DNA from: Chloroflexota bacterium
Lineage (GTDB): Bacteria > Chloroflexota > UBA6077 > JACCZL01
Direction: 5' to 3'
NCBI GenBank assembly: GCA_020850535.1
Contig: JADZEM010000068.1
Span: 62,001 to 126,000, forward strand
Length of the DNA stretch: 64,000 nucleotides
This document shows, one piece after another, positions 16,007-32,870 of the stretch; the stretch's first letter is position 1, and each line of letters starts with the position of its first letter. The translations under genes were made by a program, and so were the position numbers. Below the pieces are notes generated by a model. It was not told the origin of the DNA and made no database searches. It saw only the letters and a program-made list of their open reading frames with translations.

Positions 16007-16008
16007 CG

Positions 16009-16389
16009 GTGAGGCTCGAGCGTGGCACTGTGGTGCTGTTGGAGCTCGATCCCACCGTCGGCCATGAGCAGCGGGGCGTCCGCCCGTGCATCGTCGTCAG
16101 TGACCCGGACGTGATCGCTGACCAGCGCTTTCCGCTGACCGCCGTCGTTCCTGTCACCGGAACGCCTGGCCAAGGGGCGCTCTATCCCAGCCTCCAGCCG
16201 GGTCGCAGTGGGCTGGCCAAACCGTCCTACGCGCTCATCGACCAGCTACGCTCCGTGGACAAGCGGCGCATCCGCCGTGTCTTCGGCGTGATCTCCAGCA
16301 GCGAGGTCGACGCCCTGGACGAGGGTCTGGTGCTCTTTCTCGGCCTCGGCGCGAAACCCACGTCGCCCGGAGCGCAGTCTAGCGACTAG
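16009..16389 (+). CDS. MazF/PemK-family mRNA endonuclease toxin
   Basis: A 126-residue protein of the PemK/MazF fold: RLERGTVVLLELDPTVGHEQ and GVRPCIVVSD at the N-terminus, LTAVVPVTGTP in the core, LAKPSYALIDQLRSVDKRRI (the S-x-x-x-x-D-Q region), then VFGVISSSEV. Members cut mRNA at short sequences and are inhibited by the cognate antitoxin. The GTG at 16009 follows the antitoxin stop by two bases. A TTG at 15991 would extend it by six residues, but overlap makes that less likely. Stand-alone operation as an element-stabilising TA system is the simplest reading. Confidence 0.9.
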   Translation: MRLERGTVVLLELDPTVGHEQRGVRPCIVVSDPDVIADQRFPLTAVVPVTGTPGQGALYPSLQPGRSGLAKPSYALIDQLRSVDKRRIRRVFGVISSSEVDALDEGLVLFLGLGAKPTSPGAQSSD

Positions 16390-17636: not shown

Positions 17637-17936
17637 ATGGCCGGGGCGGCGCCACGGAGGCGGGAGGCGGCGAGCGTACTCCGCATCGCGGTGGGGCCGG
17701 CTGCGTCCCGCGCCGGTCGATCCACCGCCCCCGCTCGACCGCCGAGCGCGCTGGGCCGGGCCGACGCCGTGCGGACGGCCCGTGCCAGCGGCCCCGCGTC
17801 GGCTCCGCTCTGGGCGGCGACGCGGGGCACGTGGTTGGTGGGGGAAAGGCCGGCCGGTTCGTCCCGCCGCGGCACCGTCCCCCGTACCTCCCTGCTGCAT
17901 GACCGCCGTCTGGTCGCCGGGGGGGTGGGCCGATGA
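17637..17936 (+). CDS. Small protein leading the Tad operon
   Basis: A 99-residue basic protein (MAGAAPRRREAASVLRIAVG...). Support is contextual: AAGGGGGAG just before the ATG, GC-rich third positions, and an ATGA overlap with the CpaB-like gene at its end. Composition is Ala/Arg/Pro-rich and no fold is evident, so it might instead be a leader peptide or a non-coding transcript leader. Confidence 0.45.
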   Translation: MAGAAPRRREAASVLRIAVGPAASRAGRSTAPARPPSALGRADAVRTARASGPASAPLWAATRGTWLVGERPAGSSRRGTVPRTSLLHDRRLVAGGVGR

Positions 17937-18628
17937 GTGTCGGGGTGCTGACGCCGGCCCGGGCGGTACGCCGGCCGTGGCGCGCCGATCCGCGGGCGCT
18001 GCTCGGGGCCGGGCTGGTCCTCGTCGGGATCGTCGGGTACGTGGCCGTGGCCGGACTCACCGCCGACACGCGGGCGGTCGTCGTCGCGGCCCGCGACCGG
18101 CCGGCCGGCGCCCGGCTCGCGCCCGGCGACCTGGCGGTTGCCCGGGTCCGGGTCGACGACGCGATCTACGCCGCGGCGATCCGTGGCGACGAGCTGGAGT
18201 CGCTGGCCGGCCGGACGCTGCCGACGCCGCTTTACGCCGGCCAGGTCCTCGCGCGGGCCCAGGTCGTCGACCGCCCGCCCCCGGCCCCGGGCCAGGTGCT
18301 GATGACGGTCGCGGTCCCGCCCGAGCGGGCCGTCGGCGGCCAGCTCCGACCGGGCGACCTCGTCCGGGTGCTGGCGACCGAGAACGGGCCGGGCGGACGG
18401 GCGGTCGTGGCCGTGCCCCGGGCGACGATCGTCGAGCTGGGGCGCGAGTCCCTGCCGGGGGTAGCGACGGGGCGAGGCGACGGGCCGCCGCTCGCCTGGG
18501 CGACGCTGCTGCTCGGCGAGGCCGAGGCGGTGGGGCTCGCCCAGGCCAAGAACACCGGCCAGCTCGACCTGGCGCTCCTGCCGCCGGAGGCCGAGCCACC
18601 CGGCGAGGCGGGAGGCGGGTCCCGATGA
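17933..18628 (+). CDS. cpaB: SAF-domain pilus assembly protein, CpaB-like
   Basis: A 231-residue protein with a basic N-terminus, one membrane segment (ALLGAGLVLVGIVGYVAVAGL, residues about 22-43) and a periplasmic SAF domain (VVVAARDRPAGARLAPGDL through YAGQVLARAQVV). A second strand-rich half (GQVLMTVAVPPERAVGG and RPGDLVRVLATE) matches the RcpC/CpaB layout. CpaB/RcpC is the inner part of the Tad secretion channel or its stabiliser. It begins the conserved cpaB-cpaE-cpaF-tadB-tadC order. Confidence 0.85.
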   Translation: MSVGVLTPARAVRRPWRADPRALLGAGLVLVGIVGYVAVAGLTADTRAVVVAARDRPAGARLAPGDLAVARVRVDDAIYAAAIRGDELESLAGRTLPTPLYAGQVLARAQVVDRPPPAPGQVLMTVAVPPERAVGGQLRPGDLVRVLATENGPGGRAVVAVPRATIVELGRESLPGVATGRGDGPPLAWATLLLGEAEAVGLAQAKNTGQLDLALLPPEAEPPGEAGGGSR

Positions 18629-18638
18629 GGGTGCACCA

Positions 18639-19973
18639 GTGAGCGCGACGCTCCGGCTCCGACCGGCTCGGCTCGCGATCGGGCTCGGCAACCCGGCCGC
18701 CGAGGCGGCGCTGCTCCCGCTGCTGGCGGCCGCCGACGACCTGGAGGTCGCGGCGCGCTGCCTGGGGGCTGAGGAGCTGCTGGCGGCCGCCCGCGACCCC
18801 GCGATCGACGCCGTGCTCGTCTCGCTCGACCTGCACCGCCTGACGTCGGAGCTGCTCGCCGAGCTGGCGAACGATCGGCCGTCGCTCGTCGTGCTCGCCC
18901 CGGTCGGGGCGCCGCCGGACCTGCCGGGCCTGGTGGTGCCGGCCGAGGCCGAGCCGGCCGAGGTCCTCCAGGCGCTCCGCCTGGCCGTCGGCGGCCCGGT
19001 GGTCTCGGTCGCGGCGGCGCGTGGTCCCGCCTCGCGCGAGGAGCCGCCGCCCGCCCCGGGCTCCGAGGTGGACGACACTCGCGTGAGCGGGCTGGTCGCG
19101 GTCGCCGGCCCGCCGGGTGCCCCGGGCCGGACGACGGTCGCCCTCGGCGTGGCGGCGGGGCTGGGCACGATCGCGCCGACCGTGCTCGTCGAGGCGGACG
19201 CGACCGCCCCGAGCGTCGCGGCGTACCTCGACCTCGACCCGTCCCGCAACGCCTTCATGCTGGCCCACGCGGACCCCGTGACGCCCCAGGACTGGGAGGA
19301 GACCCTGGCCCAGGAGCTCCAGCCGCTCGACCGCGCCCGCAGCCCGCACGCGGTCGTGCTGTGCGGGGTGCCGAAGCCGGAGATGCGCGGGGCCTTGCGT
19401 CCGGCCTTCGTCGCGCAACTGCTCGACGAGCTGGGCCGCCGCTACCGCTATGTGGTAGTGGACCTCGGCCCGGACCCGCTCGGGACGGAACGGTCGCTCG
19501 GTGTGCCGACGCTCGACCGGGCCGAGGCGATCCTGGTCGTCACAGGGGCCGAGCTGGTCGGGCTGCATCGTGCGCGCGGGCTGCTCGCGACGCTCCGGGC
19601 TCGGCCGGGGCCCGATAGACTGGCGCTCGTCGTCAACCGCCACGACCCGAAGCGTCACCACGCGCGGCGGGAGATCGAGTGGGCGCTGGAGACCCCGGCC
19701 GCGGCGATGATCCCCTACGACTGGGGCGGCGTGCAGCGGGCGGCCGCCGCCCAGCGCCCGGTCGTGCTCGAGGGTCGCGGCGGGGCCGCCCAGGCGCTGC
19801 TGGAGCTGGCCGGCCGGGTCCACGGTCGGCGGCTGCGGCTGCCGCCGGATCCGGAGCGGCCGGCTCGGTGGGCGTGGGCGGCACGCCGGCCGGGCTGGCC
19901 CAAGCGGCGCCCGCGGCCGGCCCCGGCTCCAGCCTCGGCTCCGGCGCCTGAGAGGGCATCAGATGGTCGCTGA
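18639..19973 (+). CDS. cpaE: CpaE-like ParA-type ATPase with an atypical P-loop
   Basis: A 444-residue protein: an N-terminal receiver-like alpha/beta domain (1-130) without clear phosphorylation residues, a linker, then a ParA/MinD-fold domain (about 155-400). The deviant Walker A, normally K-G-G-x-G-K-T, reads AGPPGAPGRTTVALG: the first lysine is absent and the second is Arg. The 'switch' strand is TVLVEADATAPSVAAYLD. CpaE/TadZ localises the Tad machine at the cell pole. The Lys-to-Arg change is common in high-GC Tad loci, so low ATPase activity is plausible. GTG start at 18639; it overlaps CpaF by 11 nt. Confidence 0.8.
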   Translation: MSATLRLRPARLAIGLGNPAAEAALLPLLAAADDLEVAARCLGAEELLAAARDPAIDAVLVSLDLHRLTSELLAELANDRPSLVVLAPVGAPPDLPGLVVPAEAEPAEVLQALRLAVGGPVVSVAAARGPASREEPPPAPGSEVDDTRVSGLVAVAGPPGAPGRTTVALGVAAGLGTIAPTVLVEADATAPSVAAYLDLDPSRNAFMLAHADPVTPQDWEETLAQELQPLDRARSPHAVVLCGVPKPEMRGALRPAFVAQLLDELGRRYRYVVVDLGPDPLGTERSLGVPTLDRAEAILVVTGAELVGLHRARGLLATLRARPGPDRLALVVNRHDPKRHHARREIEWALETPAAAMIPYDWGGVQRAAAAQRPVVLEGRGGAAQALLELAGRVHGRRLRLPPDPERPARWAWAARRPGWPKRRPRPAPAPASAPAPERASDGR

Positions 19974-21342
19974 GCGGCGCGGCGGGGTGGCGGGTGGCCG
20001 GCCGGTCGGCCCGGAGCGCGAGGCCGAGCGGGCGCTGCGCGACGCGGTCCGCGCGGCCCTGGACGGGCGCGTGCGCCAGGGGACGCTCGACGAGGGACGC
20101 ATGCTGCGGCCGGGTCCCGAGGAGGAGGCCGAGGTCCGCAAGGAGATCCGGCGGCTGATCGCCGAGCACCAGCGAGTGGCCCGCACCTCCGGGGGCGTCG
20201 TCCTGGCCGACGAGGCCGCGACCGAGGCGCGGCTGGTCGACGCGCTGCTGAAGCTCGGCATCCTCCAGCCGCTGCTCGACGACGGGTCGATCGAGGAGAT
20301 CGAGGTCAACGGGCCGAGCCGGGTGTTCGTCGTCCGCGACGGGCGGACGGAGCTGCTGCCGGAGCTGTACTTCGACGACGACGAGGAGCTGCGGCGGCTG
20401 GTGAAGCGGATCGTCGGGCCGCTCGGGCGGCGGCTGGACGAGGCCTCGCCGATGGTCGACGTCCGTCTGCCGGACGGCTCGCGCCTGAACGCGGTCATCC
20501 CGCCGGCCGCGGAGTTCACGGCGGTCACGATCCGCAAGTTCCTGCTGCGAGCCCAGTCGCTCGACCAGCTGGTGCGGCTCGGGACGCTGCCGGCGGCCGT
20601 CGCCCAGTTCCTGGATGCGGCCGTCCGGGGCGGCGTCAACATCCTGGTGAGCGGGCCGACCGGGAGCGGCAAGACGACCCTCCTCAACGCCCTCGGGGCC
20701 GCCATCGTCGGGCTGAACGAGCGGATCGTGGTGGTCGAGGAGACGGCCGAGCTGAAGCTCTCGAAGCTGCCGAACGCGGTCTCGCTCCAGGGGCGCGCGG
20801 CGAACGTCGAGGGGGCCGGCGAGATCACGATCCGGGATCTCGTCCGCAACGCGCTGCGGATGCGGCCGACCCGGATCGTCGTCGGCGAGGTCCGCGGGGC
20901 CGAGGCGCTCGACATGCTCGACGCGATGAACACCGGCCACGACGGCAGCCTGACGACGATCCACGGCAACAGCCCTAGAGACGCGCTGGCCCGCCTGCGG
21001 GTCCTGGCGCTGCGGGCCGAGGAGCGGGTCCCGGCCGAGGCGCTCGGCGAGATGATCGCCTCGACGGTCGGGTTGGTCGTCCAGCTCCGCCTGGACCCCC
21101 GGAGCGGCGAGCGGCGGGTCTCGGGCGTGTTCGAGGTCACCGGGCTCGAGGGCGCGACGATCGTCGGCCAGGACCTGTGGACGATCGACGACGGGGGGCG
21201 CCTGGCGTGGACCGGCCGCCAGCCCCGCTGCCTGGAGCGGATCGCGGCGCGGGGAATCGACTACACCCCGCCCCCGGCGGTCGCCCGCCCCCGGCGAGGT
21301 GGCGCGGCGGCCGGGGCGCGCGCCGGCGAGGGCGGCCGGTGA
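19963..21342 (+). CDS. cpaF: CpaF/TadA secretion ATPase
   Basis: A 459-residue type II/IV secretion ATPase. The N-terminal helical domain is followed by SIEEIEVNGPSRVFV and a catalytic core with Walker A GPTGSGKTTLLNALGA, the Asp box VVVEETAELKL, Walker B RIVVGEVRGAEALDML, and the His box GHDGSLTTIHGNS. It is the hexameric motor that powers Tad pilus assembly at the inner membrane. All catalytic motifs are intact, in contrast to the CpaE-like neighbour. The C-terminus carries a short basic tail beyond the usual end. Confidence 0.95.
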   Translation: MVAERRGGVAGGRPVGPEREAERALRDAVRAALDGRVRQGTLDEGRMLRPGPEEEAEVRKEIRRLIAEHQRVARTSGGVVLADEAATEARLVDALLKLGILQPLLDDGSIEEIEVNGPSRVFVVRDGRTELLPELYFDDDEELRRLVKRIVGPLGRRLDEASPMVDVRLPDGSRLNAVIPPAAEFTAVTIRKFLLRAQSLDQLVRLGTLPAAVAQFLDAAVRGGVNILVSGPTGSGKTTLLNALGAAIVGLNERIVVVEETAELKLSKLPNAVSLQGRAANVEGAGEITIRDLVRNALRMRPTRIVVGEVRGAEALDMLDAMNTGHDGSLTTIHGNSPRDALARLRVLALRAEERVPAEALGEMIASTVGLVVQLRLDPRSGERRVSGVFEVTGLEGATIVGQDLWTIDDGGRLAWTGRQPRCLERIAARGIDYTPPPAVARPRRGGAAAGARAGEGGR

Positions 21343-21461
21343 GTCGGATCGGCAAACGGTCGCCCGTGCCCCCGGGGTGATCCGGGAGCAGGCCGGGAGC
21401 ACGGGCTCATAAGGTGGGAGCGGTGGTCACGTCCGAGGGGGCGTGCGGAGGAGACGCGACG

Positions 21462-22322
21462 ATGGAGCGGCCGCTGATCACGCTGCTGCTGGCCCTGTCG
21501 TTCGGGGCCGGCCTGGGGCTGCTCTACGGCGGGCTCGTCGACCCGCGCCCGCCGCGACCCGGCCCGGGCCCGGTTGCCCGGCTGCTGGCGCGGGCCGGAC
21601 TTGCCGACGTGTCGCCGCGCGAGTTCGTGCTGGTCTCGACGCTGGCCGGACTGGCGGCCGCAGTCGCCGCCCAGGTGGCCCTCGGCTGGACGGCCGTCTC
21701 GGTGCTGGCCGGGGTGCTGGGCACCGCCGTGCCGCTCGGCTACTACCTCCGTCGCCAGGAGGTCCGTCGCGCCCGGGTCCAGGCGGCGCTGGTCGACGCC
21801 CTGGCCCAGCTCCGCGACACGGTGCGAGCGGGCCTGAGTGTCGAGGAGGGCGTGGCGGCCCTCGCCCGGAGCGGGCCGCAGGCCCTGCGCGCCGAGTTCG
21901 CCCGCCTGGCCCAGGACGCGCGGCTCGACGGCTTCGCGGCGGGGTTGGGCCGGATGCGGGAGCGGCTGGCCGACCCGGTCTTCGATATGGCGGCGGTCGC
22001 GCTCCAGACGAACGACCGCCTGGGCGGCCGGCAGGTCGTGCCGGTCCTCGATCGGCTGGCCCAGGCCAGCCGCGGCGAACTGCGGGTCCAGGAGGAGCTG
22101 CGGGCCTACCGGGCGCGGACGGTGCTCTCGGCGCGGGTCGTGGCGGCCGTGCCGGTCGTCCTGCTGGTGGCCATCCGCTGGATCAATCCGGAGTACCTGG
22201 CCGTGTTCGACGCGCCCGCGGGCCAGGCGGTGCTCGCGCTGTGCGCGGCGAGCGTCGCGGTCGGCTACGGTGCGATGCTCTGGACGGCGCGCACGCCGGG
22301 CCAGCCGCGGGTGCTCCGATGA
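21462..22322 (+). CDS. tadB: TadB-like inner-membrane platform protein
   Basis: A 286-residue protein starting MERPLITLLLALSFGAGLGL, with GGAGGAG upstream of the ATG. Two N-terminal membrane segments, a cytoplasmic T2SF domain (VDALAQLRDTVRAGLSVEEGV through LGGRQVVPVLDRLAQ), and two C-terminal membrane segments (VVAAVPVVLLVAIRWI and AVLALCAASVAVGYGAML) give the standard TadB topology. It anchors the pilus motor in the membrane together with TadC. The gap of about 119 nt after CpaF contains no gene. Confidence 0.9.
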   Translation: MERPLITLLLALSFGAGLGLLYGGLVDPRPPRPGPGPVARLLARAGLADVSPREFVLVSTLAGLAAAVAAQVALGWTAVSVLAGVLGTAVPLGYYLRRQEVRRARVQAALVDALAQLRDTVRAGLSVEEGVAALARSGPQALRAEFARLAQDARLDGFAAGLGRMRERLADPVFDMAAVALQTNDRLGGRQVVPVLDRLAQASRGELRVQEELRAYRARTVLSARVVAAVPVVLLVAIRWINPEYLAVFDAPAGQAVLALCAASVAVGYGAMLWTARTPGQPRVLR

Positions 22323-22332
22323 GGGCGCACCC

Positions 22333-23388
22333 GTGAACGACCCCTTCGGGCTCCCAGACCTCGGCTGGCTGGCCGACCCTGCCGCGCGGGCCGCGGCCTG
22401 GGCAGTGCTGGTCGAGCGGCTCGGCCGGTTCGACCCGACGGCGGTCCGGCCGGGCGGGCTGCTCTGGCCGGCCCTGGTCGGGCTCGGGTTGTACCTGCTG
22501 CTGGTGGCCCAGCCGATCGGGCGGCCGAAGCCGGACCTGGTCGAGCGGCTGCGGCGGCTCGACGTGGACGAGCGGGTCCGCTGGGAGCTCGGGGCCGAGC
22601 GACTGCCGCTGTTCCGGTCGCGGCTGCTCGAGGCCCTCCTGCGGCCGGTCCTCGACGACGTCGGGGCGCTGCTGCGGAGCCTGCTCGGCCGGCTCGGGCT
22701 GGCCGGCGGCCGCGACCTGGAGGCCAGGCTGGCTGTCGCCCGACCGGGCGTGACGGCTTCCCAGCACTACGGCGAGAAGCTGGCGGTCGCGCTGGTGGCC
22801 GGTGCGTTCGTCCCGCTCGGGGCCTCTCTCGGGGTGCTCCCGTTCGGCTGGGCGACGCCGTGGATCGCGGCGCTGGTGGCGGGACTCGGCTTTGCCGCAC
22901 CGGACTGGGAGCTGGAGCGGCGGCTGCGGACCCTGCGGGCCGCCTGCGCCCACGAGCTGCCGGCCCTGGTGGACTTGCTCGCGATCGCGACCTCGGCCGG
23001 CTACGCCGTCGAGCAGGGGCTGGAGCTGGTCGTCCGCGAGGGGACGGGAGCGGCGGCTCGCGAGCTGCGGCGGGCGACCCGCGAGGCGGCGCTCGGGCAG
23101 GCCCCGCTGGTCGAGGCGCTCGAGGCGGCCGCGCGGCGGGTCGGGGCACCCGAGCTCTCGCAGCTGGTGACCACGCTGCGGGCCGCCCAGGAGCAGGGCC
23201 TGCCGCTCGGGCCGGCGCTCGCGGCCCAGGCCGAGGTGCTCCGCGACCGACGGCGGCTGGCGGTGCTCGAGGAGGGCGGCAAGGCGAACGTCCGGATGGT
23301 GATCCCGGTCGCCGTGTTCATCCTCCCGGTGCTGTTCATCATCCTGCTCGTCCCGGCGGCGGTGTCGCTGCTGGGGTTCGGGGGATAG
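22333..23388 (+). CDS. tadC: TadC-like inner-membrane platform protein
   Basis: A 351-residue protein, GTG start at 22333, ten bases after TadB. One membrane segment near residue 40-60 (LVGLGLYLLLVAQPI), two adjacent central segments (ALVAGAFVPLGASLGVLPF and WIAALVAGLGFAAPDW), the T2SF cytoplasmic domain (AHELPALVDLLAIATSAGYAVEQGL in part), and a C-terminal segment (VAVFILPVLFIILLVPAAVS). It pairs with TadB as the platform of the Tad pilus. Confidence 0.9.
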   Translation: MNDPFGLPDLGWLADPAARAAAWAVLVERLGRFDPTAVRPGGLLWPALVGLGLYLLLVAQPIGRPKPDLVERLRRLDVDERVRWELGAERLPLFRSRLLEALLRPVLDDVGALLRSLLGRLGLAGGRDLEARLAVARPGVTASQHYGEKLAVALVAGAFVPLGASLGVLPFGWATPWIAALVAGLGFAAPDWELERRLRTLRAACAHELPALVDLLAIATSAGYAVEQGLELVVREGTGAAARELRRATREAALGQAPLVEALEAAARRVGAPELSQLVTTLRAAQEQGLPLGPALAAQAEVLRDRRRLAVLEEGGKANVRMVIPVAVFILPVLFIILLVPAAVSLLGFGG

Positions 23389-23484: not shown

Positions 23485-23727
23485 GTGTCCGAGCTTCGCT
23501 GGTGGATGGACTGCGTCTGGCTGATGGTGGCGGCCCGGCTCCCGGCCGGGCGGCGGTTGGCGACGGCCGGGCTGGCCGGCCAGTCGCTGGTCGAGTACGC
23601 GCTGGTGATCGGGGTGATCGCCCTGCTGGCGATCGCCGGACTGACGGCCTTCGGCAACGGGATCAGTCAGCTCTTCAGCTCGATCCTCAGTCGAGTGACC
23701 GGGGCCGTCGGCGGGGGCGGGGGATAG
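23485..23727 (+). CDS. flp: Flp-family type IVb pilin
   Basis: An 80-residue prepilin. A basic leader of about 30 residues ends in G-Q-S-L-V-E-Y-A, the prepilin peptidase site with the conserved Glu at position +5 region, followed by the hydrophobic helix LVIGVIALLAIAGLTAFGNG and a short glycine-rich end. It is the major subunit of the Tad/Flp pilus. GTG start with GGGAGG seven bases upstream. The cognate peptidase is probably the gene at 30766. Confidence 0.9.
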   Translation: MSELRWWMDCVWLMVAARLPAGRRLATAGLAGQSLVEYALVIGVIALLAIAGLTAFGNGISQLFSSILSRVTGAVGGGGG

Positions 23728-23729
23728 TG

Positions 23730-24236
23730 ATGCGCGCCCGGGCGAGCGCCGACGCGGACGGGGCGACCGCCGGCGTCGCCGTGCCGCGGCCCCGGCCCTC
23801 CGGCCGCGAGGAGCGGCGACCCCGCCGGCTGCGACGACAGGTCGAGCGGGGCCAGGCGCTGGTTGAGACGGCCCTGGCGTTCCCGATCCTGGTCTTGGCG
23901 GCCTACGCGATGGTCCAGGTGGTCCTCTACGTCCACGCGCGGACCGTCGTGGTCGCCGCCGTCCAGGAAGGCGCCCGGGCGGCCGTGACGGGCGGCGACG
24001 GGATGGGGCGAGCGCGCGAGGTGCTCCAGGCCGGCTTGGGCCCGAGCGGCCGTCGGCTGTTCGTGAACACCCGCATCGAGCTCGGCGCTACGGGCGGCGA
24101 GGCCTGGGTCGTGTCCGCCGACGGGACCTGGCCGGTCCACGTCGGGCTGACCCGCATCGAGGTGCCGCTCCGCGCCGAGGCGCGCGTCAGCGGCGAGTTC
24201 TTCCGCGGCGGCCCGCCGGGAGGGCCGGGGCGATGA
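23730..24236 (+). CDS. TadE-like pseudopilin
   Basis: A 168-residue protein with a long basic N-terminus (about 45 residues), then GQALVETALAFPILVLAAYAM, the TadE prepilin-like cleavage region and transmembrane helix. A C-terminal extracytoplasmic domain contains FVNTRIELGAT and VGLTRIEVPLRAEARV. It is processed like Flp and helps initiate pilus assembly. The ATG at 23730 follows the pilin stop by two bases. Confidence 0.85.
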   Translation: MRARASADADGATAGVAVPRPRPSGREERRPRRLRRQVERGQALVETALAFPILVLAAYAMVQVVLYVHARTVVVAAVQEGARAAVTGGDGMGRAREVLQAGLGPSGRRLFVNTRIELGATGGEAWVVSADGTWPVHVGLTRIEVPLRAEARVSGEFFRGGPPGGPGR

Positions 24237-24661
24237 GGCGCCTCGAGCGCGCCCAGGCCCTCGTCGAGGTGGCATTCGCCGTGCCCGTCGTCGTCATGCT
24301 CGTCGTCGGGGCGACCGCGATCGCGACGGTGGGGCTCGTCCAGATGGCCTCCGAGGCCTCAGCCCGCGAGGCGGCCCGGGCGGCGGCGTCGGCGAAGGAC
24401 GCCGCCGAGGCGGTCGCGTGGGGCCGCCAGAGCGGCCAGGAGGTAGCGAGAGGCTACGGGCTCGCCAACGCGCAGGTCGACGTCACGGTGCGCGACTTCC
24501 CGCGCCCGAACCAGCCGCGCACCGGGGCCGGCGAGGCCCGGGCGACGGTCCGCGCCGACGTGTCGGTCCTGCGGTGGGGACGGGTCGCGGTCTCGGCCGA
24601 GCACGTCGAGCCGATCGAGCCGTACCGAGCGCGCTGGATCGGGGGGGCGGGAGTCCCGTGA
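24233..24661 (+). CDS. TadE/TadF-like pseudopilin
   Basis: A 142-residue protein with a short basic start (MRRLERAQALVEVAFAVPVVV) in which A-Q-A-L-V-E is the prepilin-like processing region, then one transmembrane helix. The extracytoplasmic part ends in VLRWGRVAVSAEHVEPIEPY. The A-S-E-A-S-A-R-E-A-A-R-A-A-A helix is typical of TadE/F proteins. It overlaps both neighbours by four bases (ATGA and GTGA). Confidence 0.85.
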   Translation: MRRLERAQALVEVAFAVPVVVMLVVGATAIATVGLVQMASEASAREAARAAASAKDAAEAVAWGRQSGQEVARGYGLANAQVDVTVRDFPRPNQPRTGAGEARATVRADVSVLRWGRVAVSAEHVEPIEPYRARWIGGAGVP

Positions 24662-25107
24662 GGCACCGTGCGGCGGCGCGGCGCGGCGTGCGGGGCCAGG
24701 CCGTGGCCTGGCTGGCGATCATGCTGCCGCTGTTCCTGGCCGTGGTCGGGCTGGCCGTCGACGGGGTGGTCGTCCTGGGGGCGCGCCGCGAGCTCCAGGA
24801 TATCGCCGACGGCGCGGCGCGAGCCGGGGCGACGGCGGTCGACGAGCAGCGCTACCGCGAGCAGGGGACGGTGGAGCTGGTCGAGGGGACCGCGCGCCAG
24901 CGGGCCGAGCAGGCGCTCGCTCGGGTCGAGTCGCGTCGGCTGGAAAGCCCTCCAGCTGGCGACGTCCGAGCGAGCCGAACGGAGGTCGCGGTGAGCGTGC
25001 GCGGGCGGGCCCGGCTCGCGTTCATCCGCATCGTCGGGATCAGGACCGCTGAGGTGCGTGCATCGGCAAGGGCGCGGCCGTTCCCCGGCATCACGCAGGC
25101 GGAGTGA
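24658..25107 (+). CDS. TadG-like protein
   Basis: A 149-residue protein starting at GTG 24658 (overlap GTGA). After a short basic leader comes GQAVAWLAIMLPLFLAVVGL, the hydrophobic segment of TadG/Tad-like proteins. Next is VVVLGARRELQDIADGAARAGA, the conserved region after the membrane segment (R-R-x-L-Q-x-x-A-D-x-A-A). It is much shorter than full TadG and lacks a VWA domain. It is likely the third pseudopilin-type protein of the pilus. Confidence 0.8.
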   Translation: MRHRAAARRGVRGQAVAWLAIMLPLFLAVVGLAVDGVVVLGARRELQDIADGAARAGATAVDEQRYREQGTVELVEGTARQRAEQALARVESRRLESPPAGDVRASRTEVAVSVRGRARLAFIRIVGIRTAEVRASARARPFPGITQAE

Positions 25108-25191
25108 GGGGGCTCTCGAACCACCACGGGCGTGGCACCGCGGCAAGAGGTCGCGACCTGGGCCAGCTCGTGGCGAGACATGGAGGAGGCG

Positions 25192-25752
25192 ATGAAGAGC
25201 AAACTGCCGAGGGCACTGGTCCTGGCACTGCTCGGGGCGGCGATGGTCGTCGGCCAGCTGGTGCTCGGGGCGAGCGCCGTCGTCGCCCAGGCGGCCGACG
25301 ACGAGGGGCCGCTGATGCAGCGGCTGCGCGAGCTGCGCCGCCCGGATGGCTCGGTCGATGCGCCCTACGGGACGGGCCAGCCGGAGGAGCTAGCAATCCA
25401 GACCGCCTACGAGCAGTACCTTGCCGTGACGGTCGATGCCCTAGCCCGCACCGATGCGAGCCGCATGGAAGAGGTTGCGGCCGGCCGACGGCTCGAGCGG
25501 ACGCGGGCGTACATCAACCAGTTGCAGGCCTCCGGGCGCCTGGCCGAGGTCACGGTGGAGTCGATAGCGCCGGTCGCCTACGTGGAGCTGACCGGTACGG
25601 AAGCAATCATCTACGTCCAGTATCGCCAGTGGCATCGCGAGATCGACGCCGTGACTGGGGCCCTCATGGCGGAGCAAGCGGGCGAGATCCTGGACACCTA
25701 CTACCTCCTGGAGCGGAGCGATGCCGCGTGGAAAGTCACGGACAGCGCCTGA
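25192..25752 (+). CDS. Secreted protein with ARC6/IMS-like C-terminal domain
   Basis: A 186-residue protein. The ATG at 25192 follows GGAGGAGGCG and gives a clean signal peptide (ALVLALLGAAMVVGQLVL, then AQA-like cleavage near residue 35). The mature part starts with a charged segment, and its C-terminal about 110 residues (IQTAYEQYLAVTVDALARTD, RLERTRAYINQLQASG, ILDTYYLLERSDAAWKVTD) resemble the small alpha-beta domain found at the end of ARC6-type and related secreted proteins. That match is from memory of the pattern only. It probably acts outside the membrane as part of the Tad apparatus. Confidence 0.6.
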   Translation: MKSKLPRALVLALLGAAMVVGQLVLGASAVVAQAADDEGPLMQRLRELRRPDGSVDAPYGTGQPEELAIQTAYEQYLAVTVDALARTDASRMEEVAAGRRLERTRAYINQLQASGRLAEVTVESIAPVAYVELTGTEAIIYVQYRQWHREIDAVTGALMAEQAGEILDTYYLLERSDAAWKVTDSA

Positions 25753-26521
25753 TGCCCGACGGCGCACCCTCGTGCTGAGTGGCGCAGCACTGGGGGCGCT
25801 CCTCCTTGGGCCAGCAACTGCCCAGGCAGCACCAGGCGATCCGATTGGCATTCGCCCGCCGCCCCAGCGGCCGACCGCCGGCGTCCGCCCCGGGGGCGGT
25901 GGGTGGAACGTGAGCGGCCCCGGCCGTCCAGGCAGTGTCGGAGCTGGCGGGCGCCCCGGTGGCAACCCCGGCGCGGGCGCCGGTCCCGGGGCCGGCGGCG
26001 GAGGACCGATCACGGCGGCCGGCTTCGCCAACTGGCTCTTCGAGCTCCAGATCCCGCAGCTGACGATCCGGACGAGCCCAGAGAATCCGGGCCTGGTCGG
26101 GATCGAGACGTACTTCTGGGTCGACGGGTACGGCGGCGAGTTCACGGAGCGCGGGCGCGTGCAGCGACCGGCCGATTTCGGCGGCGACTTCAGCGTGCAG
26201 ATCCGAGGCTGGGCCGGGCGGGTCGACTGGGATTTCGGCGACGGCCTCGGCCGGCTGGGCGGCCAGGTCGGCCCCGGCCGTGGCGACCGGCGGACCCTGC
26301 CCGGCGCGGGGCCGAGCGGGTCGACCGTCAGGTACGTCTACGACTTCACGTCATGGCACTACGAGAACGCCCAGCCCCCCGGCTTCCCGGTCGTCGTCCG
26401 GGTGACCTGGAACGGCCGCTGGACGGCCACTGGGGGCGAGGGGAGCGGGACGCTGACGCCGATCGCGCGCGACTACGTCCTGGCCTACCGAGTTCGGGAG
26501 ATTCAGCAGATCCTGCGTTAG
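25721..26521 (+). CDS. Secreted glycine-rich protein with a PKD-like region
   Basis: A 266-residue protein overlapping the previous gene by 32 nt. It has a signal peptide (TLVLSGAALGALLLGPATAQ), a glycine/proline-rich low-complexity linker (about residues 45-95) and a C-terminal beta-rich domain containing RVDWDFGDGLGRLGG, a PKD-like D-F-G-D-G motif. Then come YVYDFTSWHYENAQ and VVRVTWNGRW. It is likely exported and exposed at the surface. The context suggests a pilus-associated or cell-wall protein; no enzyme motif is seen. Confidence 0.65.
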   Translation: MPRGKSRTAPDARRRTLVLSGAALGALLLGPATAQAAPGDPIGIRPPPQRPTAGVRPGGGGWNVSGPGRPGSVGAGGRPGGNPGAGAGPGAGGGGPITAAGFANWLFELQIPQLTIRTSPENPGLVGIETYFWVDGYGGEFTERGRVQRPADFGGDFSVQIRGWAGRVDWDFGDGLGRLGGQVGPGRGDRRTLPGAGPSGSTVRYVYDFTSWHYENAQPPGFPVVVRVTWNGRWTATGGEGSGTLTPIARDYVLAYRVREIQQILR

Positions 26522-26598: not shown

Positions 26599-29500
26599 AT
26601 GCTCGACCGTACCTACATCGGCAAGGAGGCGGCCGACGACGAGGCCACCGCGTGGGCCTGGGACGGACCGGCGGCGCGCGGTCCGGTGCTCGGGCGACGC
26701 GGCTGGATCCTCGTGCTCCTGCTCGGGCTCGTGCTGCCGGTCGGGCTGCTGGCCTGGGACGGATTCCCCCGCTCGAGCGAGTGGACGTCGGCATGGCGAG
26801 TGGCCTGGCTCGCGGCCTCGACGGGACCGGGTGGGCTTCCCACTGGCGCCGTCGGACGGGCGGCGCTCGTCGGTACCGGCTGGGTCGTCGCCAGCCCGGC
26901 CGCGCTGGCGCTCCTGATCGCGCTCGTCGCCCAGTCGTCACGCTCCGCGCGCGGGCAGCTCTGGCTCGTGATCGTCGGGTTGGCGCTCGTGCCGACGGGA
27001 CTGCTGGCCCTGGTCGGCTCGCCCCGGCTGCCGGCTGCCCTACCGACCTGGGGTGACGCGACGGCCCTCGGCGGTGCGGATCTGCTCGGCCTGGCCGAGC
27101 TGCTCGCCTGGGCCCTCTGGGCCTGGGCGGTGCTGTCGTTCGTGCTCCAGGTCCTGGTCGCCCTCGCCGCGCGGGTGGCCGGCCCGGCCGCCTGGGTAGG
27201 GTCCCTGGCAACCGTCGTCGACCGCCTCTCGGCGCCGCTCATTCGCGGGGTCGTCCGTCGCTCCATGCTCGTCATGCTGATCGCCAACGTCGTCGGCCGG
27301 GCCGCGCCGGCCGCGGCGGCCGCACCGCCTCCCGCTCCCGTCGCCCTGGCGCTCGACGGACCGACCAATTCGGGCGCGGTCGCGCACGGAACCGAGAGTG
27401 TGGACTCGGACGCCGGAACGATCGCCCGCAACGGCCAAGCCAATGGGGTCGTCGCGACGGCCCGGCTGTCGTCCGCTGGCCCCCTCCGGCAGGAGGGCGA
27501 GCCCACGCGCCACGTCGTCGGTTCCGGCGAGACCCTGCGCGAAATCAGCCGGCAACACTATGGCGTTCCCGACGAGTGGCCGCGGCTGGCGGAGGCCAAC
27601 CTGGGCAAACCCCAGCCGGAGGGCGGCAGGCTGACCCGTCCCGATTACATCCGGCCGGGCTGGGTGCTGGTCGTCCCGCCGGCCGGGCCGGTCGAGTGGG
27701 TCGATGGGGCGGCCTACTACACCGTGGCGAAGTACGACACGCTGCGGGGCATCGCCGCGCGCCTCTATGGCGACGAGCTGGCCTGGCCGCGCATCTTCGA
27801 GGCCAACCGAGGCACGATCGCCCCGAACGGGATGCCGCTTCATCACCCCGACCTCATCTACCCCGACCACCGACTGCGGATTCCGGACCTGGCGCCGCCG
27901 ACCGACGTTGGTACCGATCCGGTGGCGGCCGAGGCGGCGGCAGCGGCCGAGCGTGCCGAGCAGGAACGCCGTGCCGCGGAGGCCCGCCGCGCCGAGGAGG
28001 CGCGCCGAGCGGAAGAGGCGCGTCAGGCGGAGGAATCCCGGCGGGCCGAGGAGGCGCGGGCCGAACAGGCGCGTCGGGCGGATGAGGCCCGCCGGACCGA
28101 GGAGGCCCGGCTGGCCGAGGCTGCCCGCCGGGCCGAGGAGGCGCGGATCGCCGAGGCCGAGGCGGCTGCCGCGCGCGAGCGAGCCCGTCAGGCCGCGCTC
28201 GCCGAGGCGGCCGAGGCCGAGCAGCGGGCCCGCGCGGAGGCCGCGGCGGCGGAGGCGCGGGCGGCCGAGCTTCGGGCGCTGGCCCGGCAGGCGGCGCTCG
28301 CGGCCGGGGCGGCCGGGGCGGTGCTGGCGCTCGGGGCGGCCGGGCTGCTGGCCCGCCGCCGACGCGGGCGGCGCACGCGCCTGGACGACCCGCCCCCGCC
28401 CGACGAGCAGGTGCCGGTCCGCGAGGGTTTCGCCGAGGGCGAGCCCCACCGCGCGCTGGCCTTCCGCGCCCACGCCGGCGAGGAGGCCGAGCCGGCGGTC
28501 CTGGCCGCGGCGGCCCTCGCGCGGGCGCTGGACGCCGAAGGGTTCCGCGACCTCGACATCCTGACCGCGGCCGAGGTCCGCGGCGGGCGCGGGGCCGAGT
28601 TCCTGGTCTGCGGCGACCTGACGGACGTGGCACGCGTGGTCGAGGCCGCACCCACCCTCCGCCGCCACCTCGGGGGCGATGTCGAGGCCGAGCTCACCCC
28701 CGACCACGACGCCCTCCTGCGCGTGCGGGCGATCGGCGGCATGGCGGCCTGGCCGGCCGCGGCCCCGGGGGCCGCCCCGCCGCTGGTGCCGCTCGGGATC
28801 CGGCCGGATCGCCAGGGAGTCTCCGTCAACTGGGAGGAGCTCGAGCACGTGCTAGTGGCCGGCCTGCCCGGCGGCGGGGCCGAGACTGTCCTGGTCAGCC
28901 TGGTCGCCGGCCTGGCGGCCCGCTCCCGTCCGGACGAGCTGCGGCTGTGGACGTTCGCGCCGCGGCGGGCGCTGCCGGCCGAGCTGGCCGACCTGCCCCA
29001 CCAGTTGGCCCTGCCGGTCGATCCAGCCGGCCCGGATGGGGAGCGGGCGCGCGCCGAGCTGCGCGACCTGCTGGAGCGCCGGCGGGCCGGCGAGCGCGGC
29101 CCGGAGGTGGTCGTGGTGGTCGGCGAGCTGGCCGACCTCGACGACGGCGGGACGACGCTCGAGGCGATCGGGCGCGACGGCCCGGCGTACGGCGTACGCC
29201 TGCTCGCGGCCACGAGCCGGGCCGAGGAGCTGAGCGAGGGGCTGCTGGCCCACTTCCAGACCCGGCTGGTCCTGCGGCTGCTGGACGCCGAGCTGTCGGT
29301 CCGGCTGCTCGGGACGGAGGACGCCGCCGAGCTCGGGGCCGGTGGCGACATGCTGGTGCGCCTGGAAGGCCGCCGGCCATTCGGCGCCCGCGGGTACCGG
29401 ATCGCGCCCGACCAGCTGGCCCGGCTGGTGCGCCTGACCCGCGACCTGTACGGGCAGGTCCCCGCGGGCACAGATGACGACCGGCCCGGATGGGTCGCCT

Positions 29501-30696
29501 CGGATCAGGGCGGGTCAAGGGGTGAGCCCGACGAAGGTACAGCCGCGTCGGACGACGGAGCTTCCCTCGAGGCTGCTCACGGCCTGGATGAGTCGGACGA
29601 GGCGGCGGAGGACGACGGTGAGGCATCCGACGGTATCGCAACGTCCGGTCCGATGGTGGAGGGTGGCGGTGACCGCCCGGAAGTGCCTTCGGAGCGGCCC
29701 CCCCGCGCTGGGACCGCCGGGATCGGCGCGACTGCCCGGAACGGCGCCGTGGCGACCGTCGCAGCGCCGACGGAGAACGGTGTCGCTCGCGAGCCTGCGC
29801 CCCCTGCCCCGGCGGCGCCGGCCGCCGCGATGGTCGAGATCCGCTGCTTCGGCAAGCTGCGGCTCGCCGTGGACGGGCGCGAGTGGGAGCCTGGCAGCCT
29901 GCCGAGCAGCGGCGGCGAGGGCGGCGCCCGCGTCTGGGAGGCGCTCGCCTTCATCGCCGCGCACCCGCCCGGGACGGTGACAGGCGAGCGGCTGCTGACG
30001 GGGCTTTACCCCGACGCCCCGGGCACCCGCGAGATGCACAAGCGGGTCCACAACGCCCTCTGGCGGGCCCGAAAGCTCCTGGCCGGGCTCCGCCCGGGCC
30101 TGCCCGGCGATGCCCTCCAGGCCGACGCGGCCGGCGTGTACCGGTTCGCGCCGGGTGCGATGACATCCGACGTCCACCGGTTCCTCGAGCTGGTGCGACG
30201 CGCGCCCCGCCTTGAGCCGGCCGAGGCCGAGGCCGCGCTCCGCGAGGCCTGCGCGCTGTACGCCGGCGAGCTGCTCGAGGCGCCGACCTACGGCTGGGTG
30301 TCGGATCGGAGCGCGGCGGACGGGGTCACGCTGGAAGAGCAGTACCGGGAGACGTTCCTTAGGGCCGCCCGCGCTCTCGGGCAGCTCCTCCTGCAAGCCG
30401 AGCGACCGGCCGAGGCGGCTGAGGTCTACTGGTCGGTGTTGAACCGCGAGCCAACGGCCATCGAGGCCGTGCGCGGGCTCTGCCGGGCCCGCGTGGCCCT
30501 CGGCGACGGAGCGGGACTCCGCCAGGACCGCCGCCAGCTGGTCGCCCGGCTGGCGGGGTATTACGGCGTCGCGGAGGATGAGGTGCCCGCCGGGAAGACG
30601 CCGGACGAGGAGATCCTCGACGAGGACGTCGCGGCGCTCTTCGGCGAGGCCGAGCGGCAGGTGGGGCCCGGTGCCGCGAGCGGCAAGGGACGCTGA
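26599..30696 (+). CDS. Multidomain membrane protein: LysM x2, degenerate FtsK-like domain, BTAD
   Basis: A 1365-residue protein. In order: four or five membrane segments (about 34-250); two LysM domains (305-355, HVVGSGETLREISRQHYG; 373-432, YTVAKYDTLRGIAARLYG); an Ala/Glu/Arg coiled coil (442-560); one membrane segment (560-585); an FtsK/HerA-like domain (740-950) with PHQLALPV, VVVVVGELADL, GVRLLAATSRAEE and GAGGDML in FtsK order; and a C-terminal OmpR-like wing plus BTAD bundle (1078-1345) starting VEIRCFGKLRLAVDG. The P-loop is AGLPGGGAETV and lacks Lys, and the Walker B Asp is Gly, so the ATPase is probably dead. LysM/BTAD proteins accompany Tad loci in high-GC bacteria. Confidence 0.75.
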   Translation: MLDRTYIGKEAADDEATAWAWDGPAARGPVLGRRGWILVLLLGLVLPVGLLAWDGFPRSSEWTSAWRVAWLAASTGPGGLPTGAVGRAALVGTGWVVASPAALALLIALVAQSSRSARGQLWLVIVGLALVPTGLLALVGSPRLPAALPTWGDATALGGADLLGLAELLAWALWAWAVLSFVLQVLVALAARVAGPAAWVGSLATVVDRLSAPLIRGVVRRSMLVMLIANVVGRAAPAAAAAPPPAPVALALDGPTNSGAVAHGTESVDSDAGTIARNGQANGVVATARLSSAGPLRQEGEPTRHVVGSGETLREISRQHYGVPDEWPRLAEANLGKPQPEGGRLTRPDYIRPGWVLVVPPAGPVEWVDGAAYYTVAKYDTLRGIAARLYGDELAWPRIFEANRGTIAPNGMPLHHPDLIYPDHRLRIPDLAPPTDVGTDPVAAEAAAAAERAEQERRAAEARRAEEARRAEEARQAEESRRAEEARAEQARRADEARRTEEARLAEAARRAEEARIAEAEAAAARERARQAALAEAAEAEQRARAEAAAAEARAAELRALARQAALAAGAAGAVLALGAAGLLARRRRGRRTRLDDPPPPDEQVPVREGFAEGEPHRALAFRAHAGEEAEPAVLAAAALARALDAEGFRDLDILTAAEVRGGRGAEFLVCGDLTDVARVVEAAPTLRRHLGGDVEAELTPDHDALLRVRAIGGMAAWPAAAPGAAPPLVPLGIRPDRQGVSVNWEELEHVLVAGLPGGGAETVLVSLVAGLAARSRPDELRLWTFAPRRALPAELADLPHQLALPVDPAGPDGERARAELRDLLERRRAGERGPEVVVVVGELADLDDGGTTLEAIGRDGPAYGVRLLAATSRAEELSEGLLAHFQTRLVLRLLDAELSVRLLGTEDAAELGAGGDMLVRLEGRRPFGARGYRIAPDQLARLVRLTRDLYGQVPAGTDDDRPGWVASDQGGSRGEPDEGTAASDDGASLEAAHGLDESDEAAEDDGEASDGIATSGPMVEGGGDRPEVPSERPPRAGTAGIGATARNGAVATVAAPTENGVAREPAPPAPAAPAAAMVEIRCFGKLRLAVDGREWEPGSLPSSGGEGGARVWEALAFIAAHPPGTVTGERLLTGLYPDAPGTREMHKRVHNALWRARKLLAGLRPGLPGDALQADAAGVYRFAPGAMTSDVHRFLELVRRAPRLEPAEAEAALREACALYAGELLEAPTYGWVSDRSAADGVTLEEQYRETFLRAARALGQLLLQAERPAEAAEVYWSVLNREPTAIEAVRGLCRARVALGDGAGLRQDRRQLVARLAGYYGVAEDEVPAGKTPDEEILDEDVAALFGEAERQVGPGAASGKGR

Positions 30697-30765
30697 TGGT
30701 CACCTGGTGGGCCGGGATCGGCAGGTTAGGAACCCTGCGATGCACCTGAAGGTGGGGCGACCTTG

Positions 30766-31251
30766 ATGGACATTGCCCCGCCGGTCCCGACGGCCGTGGC
30801 CTGGCCCGCCCTCGCCCTGCTGCTCGGCGTGGCCGCAGTGGCGGACCTTCGCTCGCGCCACGTGCCGATCCTGCTGCTCGGCGGTGGACTGCTGACCGGC
30901 CTGGTTCTCGCGGCCCTGGTCGGAGGCTCTTCCGCCCTCGGGCACAGTCTGCTGGGCGTTGCCGTCGGCGGGGGGCTGCTGCTCCCGTTCGTGCTGGTCC
31001 GCGGCAAGCCACCCGGCCTTCCTCGGGTGGAACGAGGCGAGGCGCTCGGCCCGGCCGACGCCCTGCTCCTGGCCGCGGTCGGAGCCTGGCAGGGCCCGCT
31101 CTTCGCCCTACAGGCCGCGGTCGCGGCGAGCCTGGTGGGGGCCGTCTGGGCGCTCGTGGCCTGGTGCCGGGCCGGGCGTCGGCGCGGCGTTGTCTTTCCG
31201 TACGTGCCGTCATTGGCGCTGGGAGCCGTGCTGGCGACGCTGCTCCGCTAG
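30766..31251 (+). CDS. Prepilin peptidase, A24 family
   Basis: A 161-residue integral membrane protein with at least five hydrophobic segments. The first catalytic Asp is in AAVADLRSRHVP; the second is in the G-x-x-D motif LGPADALLLAAVGAW (GPAD instead of GxGD). It lacks the N-terminal methyltransferase domain, as CpaA/TadV do. It would cleave the Flp pilin and TadE-like proteins at the cytoplasmic face. The ATG at 30766 follows GGTGGGG and is the last gene of the Tad locus. Confidence 0.8.
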   Translation: MDIAPPVPTAVAWPALALLLGVAAVADLRSRHVPILLLGGGLLTGLVLAALVGGSSALGHSLLGVAVGGGLLLPFVLVRGKPPGLPRVERGEALGPADALLLAAVGAWQGPLFALQAAVAASLVGAVWALVAWCRAGRRRGVVFPYVPSLALGAVLATLLR

Positions 31252-31358: not shown

Positions 31359-32813
31359 CTACTTGCCTAATGTCGGGATCCTCATTAGGCGGTGCCCACG
31401 GAAGCGCAAACCTCTGCTCGTGACGAGTGCCGTCCATCGGTCCTGTGTGCCGATACTCGCAGGACCTGCGAACAAGCCAGCCTGCTCCTCCTGTGCAGTC
31501 AGGCGGGCGAATGTCTGTCGCCTAGGGTAGTCCGCTGCGACGAACGTCTCCTTCCGATGGAGAATTGGAGGGTTCTTCCACCTGCGGAAGTCCCTGATCC
31601 TGACGTCAAGATGCCTCAGATCTGCCCTCACGGACATATGGAGCGCTGGGTGCGGCTCGCGGTCGAAGGCGGGATATACGAGGTACGAGACTTTCGGCTC
31701 GAACCGGTGGAGCTTCACAACGTTCGCCATATCGACGGTGCCCGTAAGGGCACGCCCGCAGCCCTCGTAGACCCGGAGCAGTGGGCTAAGGCGTGGCAGC
31801 GCACTCACGTGGATGTACAGGGCCTCAGGTGTAAGCTTGCCGACGGGCGCTTCTCGACACGCGCGGTCGAGCGCCGCCAGGTTGCCGGCCCCGAATAACA
31901 GCGTGTCGGCCCTCTCGCAGGCTGCCTTGTATGAACCGAAGAAGGCCCGCACGTCGAGTTGGATGTCGCGTGGGAGTGCAGTGAATTTGGGGCGCCCACC
32001 GAACGCAGCAAGGGCGAGATACACAGCAAGATCGTCGGTCGCCGCTGTCTGCGCGCCACCCCAAGCGTCGTCACCCGTGGCGCGGCGGACAAGGGCGAGA
32101 GCGCGCTGTATGCTTCCGAACCGCTCCACTATCGCCGCGGCGGCCTGACCTAGTTCAAAGGCTTCGGGTTCCCGGCCGCGCGCCTGGACGAACGTGAGAA
32201 GCGGGTCCAGAATGGCGCGATTGGCCTCGTACACCGCTTCCCGGGTGCGGCGGTGCACCACCACGGGGCGGTGGCGAACGCGCGCGGCGAAGTAGCGCTG
32301 AGCCTGAACTTCGTCGCGGAAGACGTAGAAGACGCCAGGGGCGGCCGCCACGCTGCGCACCGTCAACACACCGTCGACCCAGGCGCGCAGTTCCTCCTGG
32401 CTGAAGAACTTCTGGAACGTGCCCTTCATCGTGAGCATGCCATCGCCGCAGCCCACCCCCGGCAAGTTCTGCGCTTCCCACTCCATCCTGGCGGCGACCA
32501 CGAGTACGCCCTCGGCGAGTGACCACGCTGTCCGTAGGGCGTCAGCACGCTCTCGCGGATCTTCTATGACGTTAACGACGTACCCCAGATTGACGAGGTA
32601 AGCAGATTGCAGTTCCCCGTGCGGCCAATGCACGGGGTCCCAGCCCGACGCAGCGAACCCGAGGTCCGACATACGCTCCACGTCGCCGCCGCGTCCGCTG
32701 CCATAGTCGAAGAACGTCGCTCCCGTCGGAATGAGGCCATCGGCTAGGGCCAGCGAGACCGGTCGCGATAGGGCGACCCTACTGATCGCCGTGCGGTGGC
32801 GCGGAATGCTCAT
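31359..32813 (-). CDS. DNA phosphorothioation-associated putative methyltransferase
   Basis: A 484-residue protein of the family that accompanies phosphorothioation loci. The N-terminal part begins MSIPRHRTAISRVALSRPVS and has an S-adenosylmethionine-binding motif FFDYGSGRGGDVERM with downstream GWDPVHWP. The C-terminal half carries the family-specific stretch KVSYLVYPAFDREPHPAL. The substrate is unproven. The ATG at 32813 is used because it has GGAGAAGG upstream and the extra 17 residues to 32864 look random. It is transcribed away from the ssp operon from a shared 140-bp intergenic region. Confidence 0.85.
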   Translation of the reverse strand: MSIPRHRTAISRVALSRPVSLALADGLIPTGATFFDYGSGRGGDVERMSDLGFAASGWDPVHWPHGELQSAYLVNLGYVVNVIEDPRERADALRTAWSLAEGVLVVAARMEWEAQNLPGVGCGDGMLTMKGTFQKFFSQEELRAWVDGVLTVRSVAAAPGVFYVFRDEVQAQRYFAARVRHRPVVVHRRTREAVYEANRAILDPLLTFVQARGREPEAFELGQAAAAIVERFGSIQRALALVRRATGDDAWGGAQTAATDDLAVYLALAAFGGRPKFTALPRDIQLDVRAFFGSYKAACERADTLLFGAGNLAALDRACREAPVGKLTPEALYIHVSALPRLSPLLRVYEGCGRALTGTVDMANVVKLHRFEPKVSYLVYPAFDREPHPALHMSVRADLRHLDVRIRDFRRWKNPPILHRKETFVAADYPRRQTFARLTAQEEQAGLFAGPASIGTQDRWTALVTSRGLRFRGHRLMRIPTLGK

Positions 32814-32870
32814 GGCCTTCTCCGTGGGGCACCGATCAAGCGCGGCATTGAGGCATCTTGGCATACCTAG

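Follow-up and report, generated by a model that had tools for sequence, protein, structure and literature searches.

A degenerate FtsK motor domain joined to LysM and SARP modules in a Tad locus of Chloroflexota

What use could a cell make of a motor domain of the FtsK family that has lost the residues by which such a motor works? The question is raised by a gene at positions 26599-30696 (+) of a 64,000-nucleotide stretch of a Chloroflexota genome (assembly GCA_020850535.1, contig JADZEM010000068.1, positions 62,001 to 126,000 of the forward strand), referred to as the window in the following. An earlier note, made from the sequence alone, had described the product of this gene as a LysM protein in a Tad locus with a catalytically dead FtsK-like domain joined to BTAD. 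Our analysis of this LysM/pseudo-FtsK/SARP protein, termed LFB here, suggests that it is probably, though far from certainly, a membrane-embedded, wall-tethered SARP-type regulator of one Chloroflexota Tad subtype, in which the dead FtsK domain would act as a hub for oligomerisation or partner binding.

The FtsK-type domain and its active site

Pfam detects both LysM and FtsK_SpoIIIE in the open reading frame (ORF), the latter at residues 738-898 (E=3.6e-7, 30.3 bits against a cut-off of 24), and the FtsK landmarks LPHQ, GVRLLAATSRAEE and GAGGDML are present in the order quoted by the earlier note, along with AGLPGGGAETV at residues 754-764 and VVVVVGEL at 837-844. Profile comparison, which that note had named as a test, retrieved the FtsK and EccC families: a profile of 18 LFB family members was aligned by HHalign with 12 true FtsKs from the same phylum over 332 columns (probability 99.7, E=8.7e-26), and the alignment includes the alpha subdomain of FtsK, which precedes the stretch matched by Pfam. 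With this subdomain included the FtsK-type domain extends over residues ~590-960 and is thus larger than the region of residues 740-950 proposed originally. Sequence searches of the PDB with the FtsK-like domain retrieved EccC and FtsK. The AlphaFold2 model of residues 590-960 is confident (pLDDT 88.4, pTM 0.89), and in a Foldseek search its first match was the FtsK motor (6t8b, E=1.8e-17; DNA-bound cryo-EM structures), followed by TcpA and EccC. On the strength of profiles and model the domain is predicted to have a genuine FtsK alpha+beta motor fold.

EccC models of NCBIfam also match the FtsK-like part, and a LysM protein model of the same collection matches residues 371-430. EccC was nevertheless rejected as the source of the domain, despite a higher summed profile score, since no single domain matches better than that of FtsK, which alone has the alpha subdomain. 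Pfam found one FtsK domain in LFB instead of the tandem FtsK-type ATPase domains of EccC, and no match to Ftsk_gamma, the KOPS-reading gamma winged helix, at E<=10. No ESX genes were found among the tested neighbouring ORFs; the neighbours are Tad genes.

Residues of the active site and the DNA-binding loops were counted in the 18 LFB members, aligned over the FtsK domain, and in the 12 true FtsKs. FtsK residue numbers were placed on the PDB chain by our own mapping, which is consistent with every named residue, and K657 was left unscored as it is not conserved among the 12 true FtsKs. The Walker A Lys, reported as lost in the earlier note, is absent from every LFB member (0/18, with Ala in 11/18) and present in 12/12 true FtsKs. 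Likewise, the Ser/Thr of Walker A is kept in 12/12 true FtsKs and in none of the 18 LFB members, all of which retain the last Gly of the loop. Since Asp or Glu occupies the Ser/Thr position in 14/18, the active site appears to have been remodelled consistently. The Walker B Asp is also gone (0/18, replaced by Gly in 8 and Pro in 6; 12/12 in true FtsKs), in agreement with the earlier note, which had not separated it from the Glu that follows: this residue is kept as Glu in 16/18 and Asp in 2/18 members, so only the first acid is lost.

In FtsK, R620 is the arginine finger and R632, K643 and R661 are DNA-gripping pore-loop residues (PMC7321959). The finger, Arg in 12/12 true FtsKs, is Pro862 in the window LFB and Arg/Lys in 3/18 of the family. 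Both K643 and R661, present in 12/12 true FtsKs, were found in none of the LFB members (0/18 each), and R632 (12/12) is retained in 8/18, the window protein among them. Judged by these residues, the LFB FtsK domain appears to be dead, able neither to burn ATP nor to grip DNA in the manner of FtsK.

The Walker A Lys is likewise missing from divergent members in genomes G230 and G301 and from a copy in G009 whose frame is broken, and the survey of homologues did not retrieve any with an intact P-loop. An isolated mutation and a pseudogene were both rejected, as the loss is common to all 18 relatives; it is old and inherited rather than a local mutation. SspH, encoded in the same window (48289-53829), has retained a P-loop of the FtsK type in intact form (GSTGSGKS, residue 1620), and therefore the loss is no property of the whole genome. 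The view that LFB carries a pseudo-motor of FtsK descent between its LysM domains and BTAD was borne out, with the P-loop lost family-wide.

Wall, membrane and SARP parts in the LFB family

All full-length LFB members have N-terminal hydrophobic helices and two LysM repeats according to hydropathy and alignment, and Pfam finds LysM in 13/13 of them. In the window protein helices 121-139 and 172-190 are those kept across the family, and the first two helices are an extension specific to it. The coiled linker of the window protein (residues 440-565) is replaced by Pro/Ala-rich sequence in its relatives. Nearly all full-length members carry a hydrophobic helix just before the FtsK-like part, usually followed by a net positive charge. 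By the positive-inside rule the segment after RRRRGRRTR is expected to be cytoplasmic. Because this positive charge trails the helix we infer an outside location for the LysM part and a cytoplasmic one for the FtsK and SARP parts.

The C-terminus, described in the earlier note as a BTAD helical bundle, does contain BTAD but is a complete SARP module, in which an OmpR-type winged helix precedes BTAD. Pfam BTAD and Trans_reg_C are significant in 10/13 full-length members. The AlphaFold2 model of the C-terminal 267 residues of the window LFB has a pLDDT of 88.4, and the first six Foldseek matches, extending over ~270 columns, are AfsR/EmbR (8k60, E=3.5e-8; 2fez, E=6.7e-8); the CadC DNA-binding domain appears weakly (E=0.029). 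AfsR binds direct repeats via its winged helix as a side-by-side dimer, R92 contacting a base and R94 the backbone (PMC10936776). The recognition-helix Arg-x-Arg that aligns with these two residues is invariant in the LFB family, and the position of Thr88 of AfsR is variable; the module may bind DNA.

The family was surveyed by whole-genome searches of 61 relatives and by scanning 400 genomes of the phylum, Chloroflexota, with a profile. Some relatives in this phylum, with genomes of 1.4-1.5 Mb, have 19-28 reductive dehalogenase genes each, as is characteristic of Dehalococcoides. The FtsK-like profile separates most LFB members (320-547 bits) and the frame-broken copy (147 bits) from all other FtsK proteins (<=103 bits). 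LFB was detected in 12/400 genomes, or 13 if G008 is counted, where there is only a fragment at a contig end, and two further contigs carry only part of the FtsK-like domain. Two or more copies are present in genomes G004, G009, G040 and G230. The frame-broken copy (L093 8943-11680) is the fourth in G009; split into two frames and without the P-loop Lys, it is a decaying paralogue.

Apart from the LFB family, a profile of the N-terminal transmembrane and LysM part matched only broken frames in G028 and a single intact protein in G300 (L116, G300:C214, - strand). This protein of 927 residues consists of transmembrane helices, two LysM repeats, a basic stretch, a linker, the winged helix and BTAD, and has no FtsK domain. 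In a tree of the shared parts it groups with two G230 members that have the FtsK domain (support 87/91), and because of this branching its FtsK domain has likely been lost secondarily. As the G300 relative keeps both the wall/membrane part and the SARP module, these two appear to form the invariant core of LFB.

A search of genome contigs with the whole of LFB gave almost only Glu/Ala/Arg-coil proteins and one Paenibacillus match over residues 730-916. In a tblastn search of plasmids with the FtsK and SARP part no match was obtained, and two Arthrobacter-type plasmid Tad loci contain no annotated LysM or BTAD gene. In Actinomycetota large LysM/BTAD proteins may exist.

Tad linkage and the role of LFB

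The assignment to a Tad locus was correct, as RcpC/CpaB, T2SSE (CpaF), T2SSF, TadE, TadE/G and Peptidase_A24 proteins are encoded around LFB. Among the loci that reach far enough upstream of LFB for a comparison of gene order, TadZ-CpaF-TadB-TadC-TadE-TadE/G-conserved protein(s)-LFB is found in L045, L049, L051-L054 and L059 and partly in L047, L050, L091 and L092, and LFB is the last gene of this order in every well-covered locus. The linkage is strong and not absolute, because two loci of G009, L056 and L093 (the broken copy), have no Tad neighbours despite several kb of upstream sequence. Among the 61 relatives the LFB-linked CpaF proteins form a group of their own (62-68% identity, versus ~53% or less for other CpaFs); with the identity cut chosen after inspection of the data, this subtype occurs in 9/11 LFB-bearing genomes and in 0/50 others (Fisher 3e-9). 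In the two LFB-bearing genomes without it, LFB lies near contig ends. No secretin was found among the window ORFs tested. ARAGORN reports a 98-base tRNA-Pro(GGG) at 22354-22451 (+), between TadB and TadC, which is probably a chance match in GC-rich DNA.

If LFB is a regulator, its paired LysM domains would hold peptidoglycan outside the membrane and the dead FtsK alpha+beta domain would offer an oligomerisation or docking surface below the membrane instead of a motor. The winged helix and BTAD, on a flexible acidic tether, would bind promoter DNA and RNA polymerase, with the tad operon or pilus genes as probable targets, and the SARP module would switch on pilus genes in response to the condition of the pilus machine or of the wall. 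More tentatively, the dead FtsK domain might form a ring-shaped hub through which a transmembrane, wall-sensing SARP regulator relays this putative signal across the membrane to a promoter. We regard this more specific proposal as possible though doubtful; if true, it would define a previously undescribed kind of signalling receptor.

The main rival is a structural role in Tad assembly, with LFB anchoring the machine to peptidoglycan, the dead FtsK ring organising CpaF, TadB and TadC, and the winged helix and BTAD serving as a protein-protein adaptor. Its place at the end of the Tad gene order at every well-covered locus would fit such a scaffold, as would the LysM domains, suited to a wall anchor, and the lack of a secretin among the ORFs tested; for dead ATPases with a structural function the degenerate DUF rings of EccC set a precedent (PMC11154593). 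However, the SARP module has kept its recognition-helix arginines, and the FtsK domain is missing in the G300 relative. Moreover, to our knowledge every characterised BTAD protein with an intact winged helix is a transcription factor. Because of the full SARP module and the relative without FtsK domain we consider a regulator more likely than a mere assembly scaffold, a role that is possible, if rather unlikely.

The remaining alternatives concern the FtsK domain itself. It might still bind nucleotide without hydrolysing it and work as a ligand-sensing switch, like the NOD domain in AfsR, and the GxxGxG loop with its last Gly (18/18) and the Walker B Glu (16/18) are indeed kept; yet Lys and Ser/Thr are gone in 18/18, an acid stands in 14/18 where Ser/Thr coordinates Mg/phosphate, and the DUF domain of EccC5, a related domain, does not bind ATP (PMC11154593), all of which makes such a switch improbable. 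Its absence in G300 and the lost active-site residues could be taken to mean that the domain is a decaying relic without function. The open frames, the mean column identity of 40% over deep divergence, the confidently predicted shared fold, the invariance of residues such as R889 and H801, and a remodelling that is limited to the active site and consistent (Ser/Thr to Asp/Glu) render a relic very improbable. Finally, the window has a GC content of 74% and many long spurious ORFs, so that FtsK-like motifs might have been read into GC-rich sequence by chance or in a wrong frame, a notion refuted by the eighteen homologues with the same domain, the profile E-values and the AlphaFold2 and Foldseek results, and of negligible probability.

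Several points weigh against a role of LFB as regulator. In the window LFB taken alone BTAD is not significant by Pfam, and its winged helix has Tyr where the relatives and SARPs have Trp (Trp74, in the preceding turn). The FtsK-less relative is a single sequence from a metagenome-assembled genome. A DNA binder that is tethered to membrane and wall cannot reach far, and so close a linkage to Tad genes would also be expected of an assembly part.

Compared with known systems, LFB shares the alpha+beta fold across the whole domain and the order of landmarks with the FtsK/SpoIIIE motor (P. aeruginosa FtsK, 2iuu, 6t8b), from which it differs by the lost Walker A Lys and Ser/Thr, Walker B Asp, K643 and R661, by the mostly absent arginine finger, by the lack of a detected gamma domain and by the fusion to LysM and SARP parts. 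The degenerate DUF, D2 and D3 domains of EccC/EssC in type VII secretion are, like that of LFB, non-catalytic FtsK-family ATPases beside a transmembrane segment, and the EccC5 DUF domain, which has lost its Walker motifs and does not bind ATP, is proposed to have a hexamer-forming role (PMC11154593). EccC, however, has tandem ATPase domains and neither alpha subdomain nor LysM nor SARP module, LFB being the opposite on each count, and the P-loop of the EccC5 DUF is a helix, whereas LFB keeps the Gly-rich loop in sequence. AfsR of Streptomyces and EmbR of Mycobacterium combine a winged helix and BTAD in the same fold as predicted for the LFB C-terminus, and large SARPs such as AfsR carry extra sensory or oligomerisation domains (PMC10936776). 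Known SARPs are soluble and have the SARP module at the N-terminus, whereas in LFB it is C-terminal, on a membrane LysM protein with a pseudo-FtsK domain. ToxR/CadC-type regulators link a cytoplasmic OmpR-type winged helix through the membrane to an outer domain, as is predicted for LFB, which has the opposite domain order, carries BTAD and pseudo-FtsK in addition and would have LysM outside.

LFB thus combines known kinds of parts, a stand-alone dead FtsK motor, LysM and a SARP module, across the membrane; no published description of this architecture was found in the literature searched, and our genome survey covered Chloroflexota. The known FtsK-family pseudo-ATPases in EccC adjoin live ATPase domains, whereas the dead motor of LFB is alone in its protein; it has been inherited in this state by every member examined and is linked to a complete transcription-activating module as well as to domains that bind the wall. 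Since an inherited-dead motor is joined to SARP and wall-binding domains, one Tad subtype may possess a regulator of its own embedded in the envelope. This would offer a route to ask how, in a bacterium with a single membrane, a machine that has no secretin signals its state to the genome. LFB is also a clean natural test of the function left to an FtsK fold after the loss of hydrolysis and of much of its DNA grip.

Features and further genes of the window

The features of LFB and of the Tad operon are collected in the table.

Table 1. Coordinates of the LFB gene, its parts and the surrounding Tad genes in the window
Feature	Positions	Strand	Basis
CpaB/RcpC of Tad operon	17933..18628	+	Pfam RcpC, SAF
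TadZ/CpaE-like MinD-type ATPase	18639..19973	+	minD models, conserved synteny
CpaF/TadA ATPase, subtype co-occurring with LFB	19963..21342	+	T2SSE E=3.8e-56
TadB, by conserved gene order	21414..22322	+	synteny, homologues
TadC, T2SSF family, start uncertain	22300..23388	+	T2SSF E=1.3e-16, synteny
ORF of TadE-like minor pilin, true start probably internal to it	23502..24236	+	TadE E=3.3e-10
TadE/TadG-like protein	24418..25107	+	Pfam Tad E=1.9e-8
Conserved operon protein, no family	25132..25752	+	homologues at same place in L050, L052
Conserved protein encoded immediately before LFB, no family	25721..26521	+	homologues directly upstream in most loci
LFB gene, 1365 residues	26599..30696	+	ATG start, Shine-Dalgarno-like GAGGAGG just upstream
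N-terminal hydrophobic helices, residues ~35-241	26701..27321	+	hydropathy, alignment
LysM 1, residues 305-360	27511..27678	+	Pfam LysM E=1.6e-5
LysM 2, residues 371-430, degenerate in window LFB	27709..27888	+	NF008399 stretch 371-430, alignment
Ala/Arg/Glu-rich coiled linker, residues 440-565	27916..28293	+	sequence
Transmembrane helix 566-584, then RRRRGRRTR	28294..28374	+	hydropathy
Degenerate FtsK alpha+beta motor domain (predicted), residues ~590-960	28366..29478	+	Pfam, HHalign, AlphaFold2, Foldseek
Putatively dead Walker A, GLPGGGAET (Lys to Ala, Ser/Thr to Glu)	28861..28887	+	alignment of 18 members
Putatively dead Walker B, VVVVVGEL (Asp to Gly, Glu kept)	29107..29130	+	alignment of 18 members
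FtsK arginine-finger position, Pro862 in window LFB	29182..29184	+	alignment to FtsK
Acidic low-complexity linker	29479..29829	+	sequence
OmpR-type winged helix of SARP module, residues ~1078-1190	29830..30168	+	Trans_reg_C in relatives, AfsR/EmbR fold
BTAD helical/TPR part of SARP module, residues ~1191-1345	30169..30633	+	BTAD in relatives, AlphaFold2, Foldseek
Prepilin peptidase just downstream of LFB	30763..31251	+	Peptidase_A24 E=9.2e-11

Directly beyond the Tad locus lies a complete-looking Ssp phosphorothioation defence system (33114-53829, +), which comprises SspA, B, C, D, F, G and H with two further genes inside and has a GC content of 66-70% versus 74%. A PemK/MazF-like toxin gene (15991-16389, +) is located in 15704-16389, where a small upstream ORF resembles its antitoxin. 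Beside the Ssp genes, on the opposite strand, a protein of 501 residues (31359-32864, -) gave a weak methyltransferase match only; presumably it resembles a putative methyltransferase often encoded near phosphorothioation genes.

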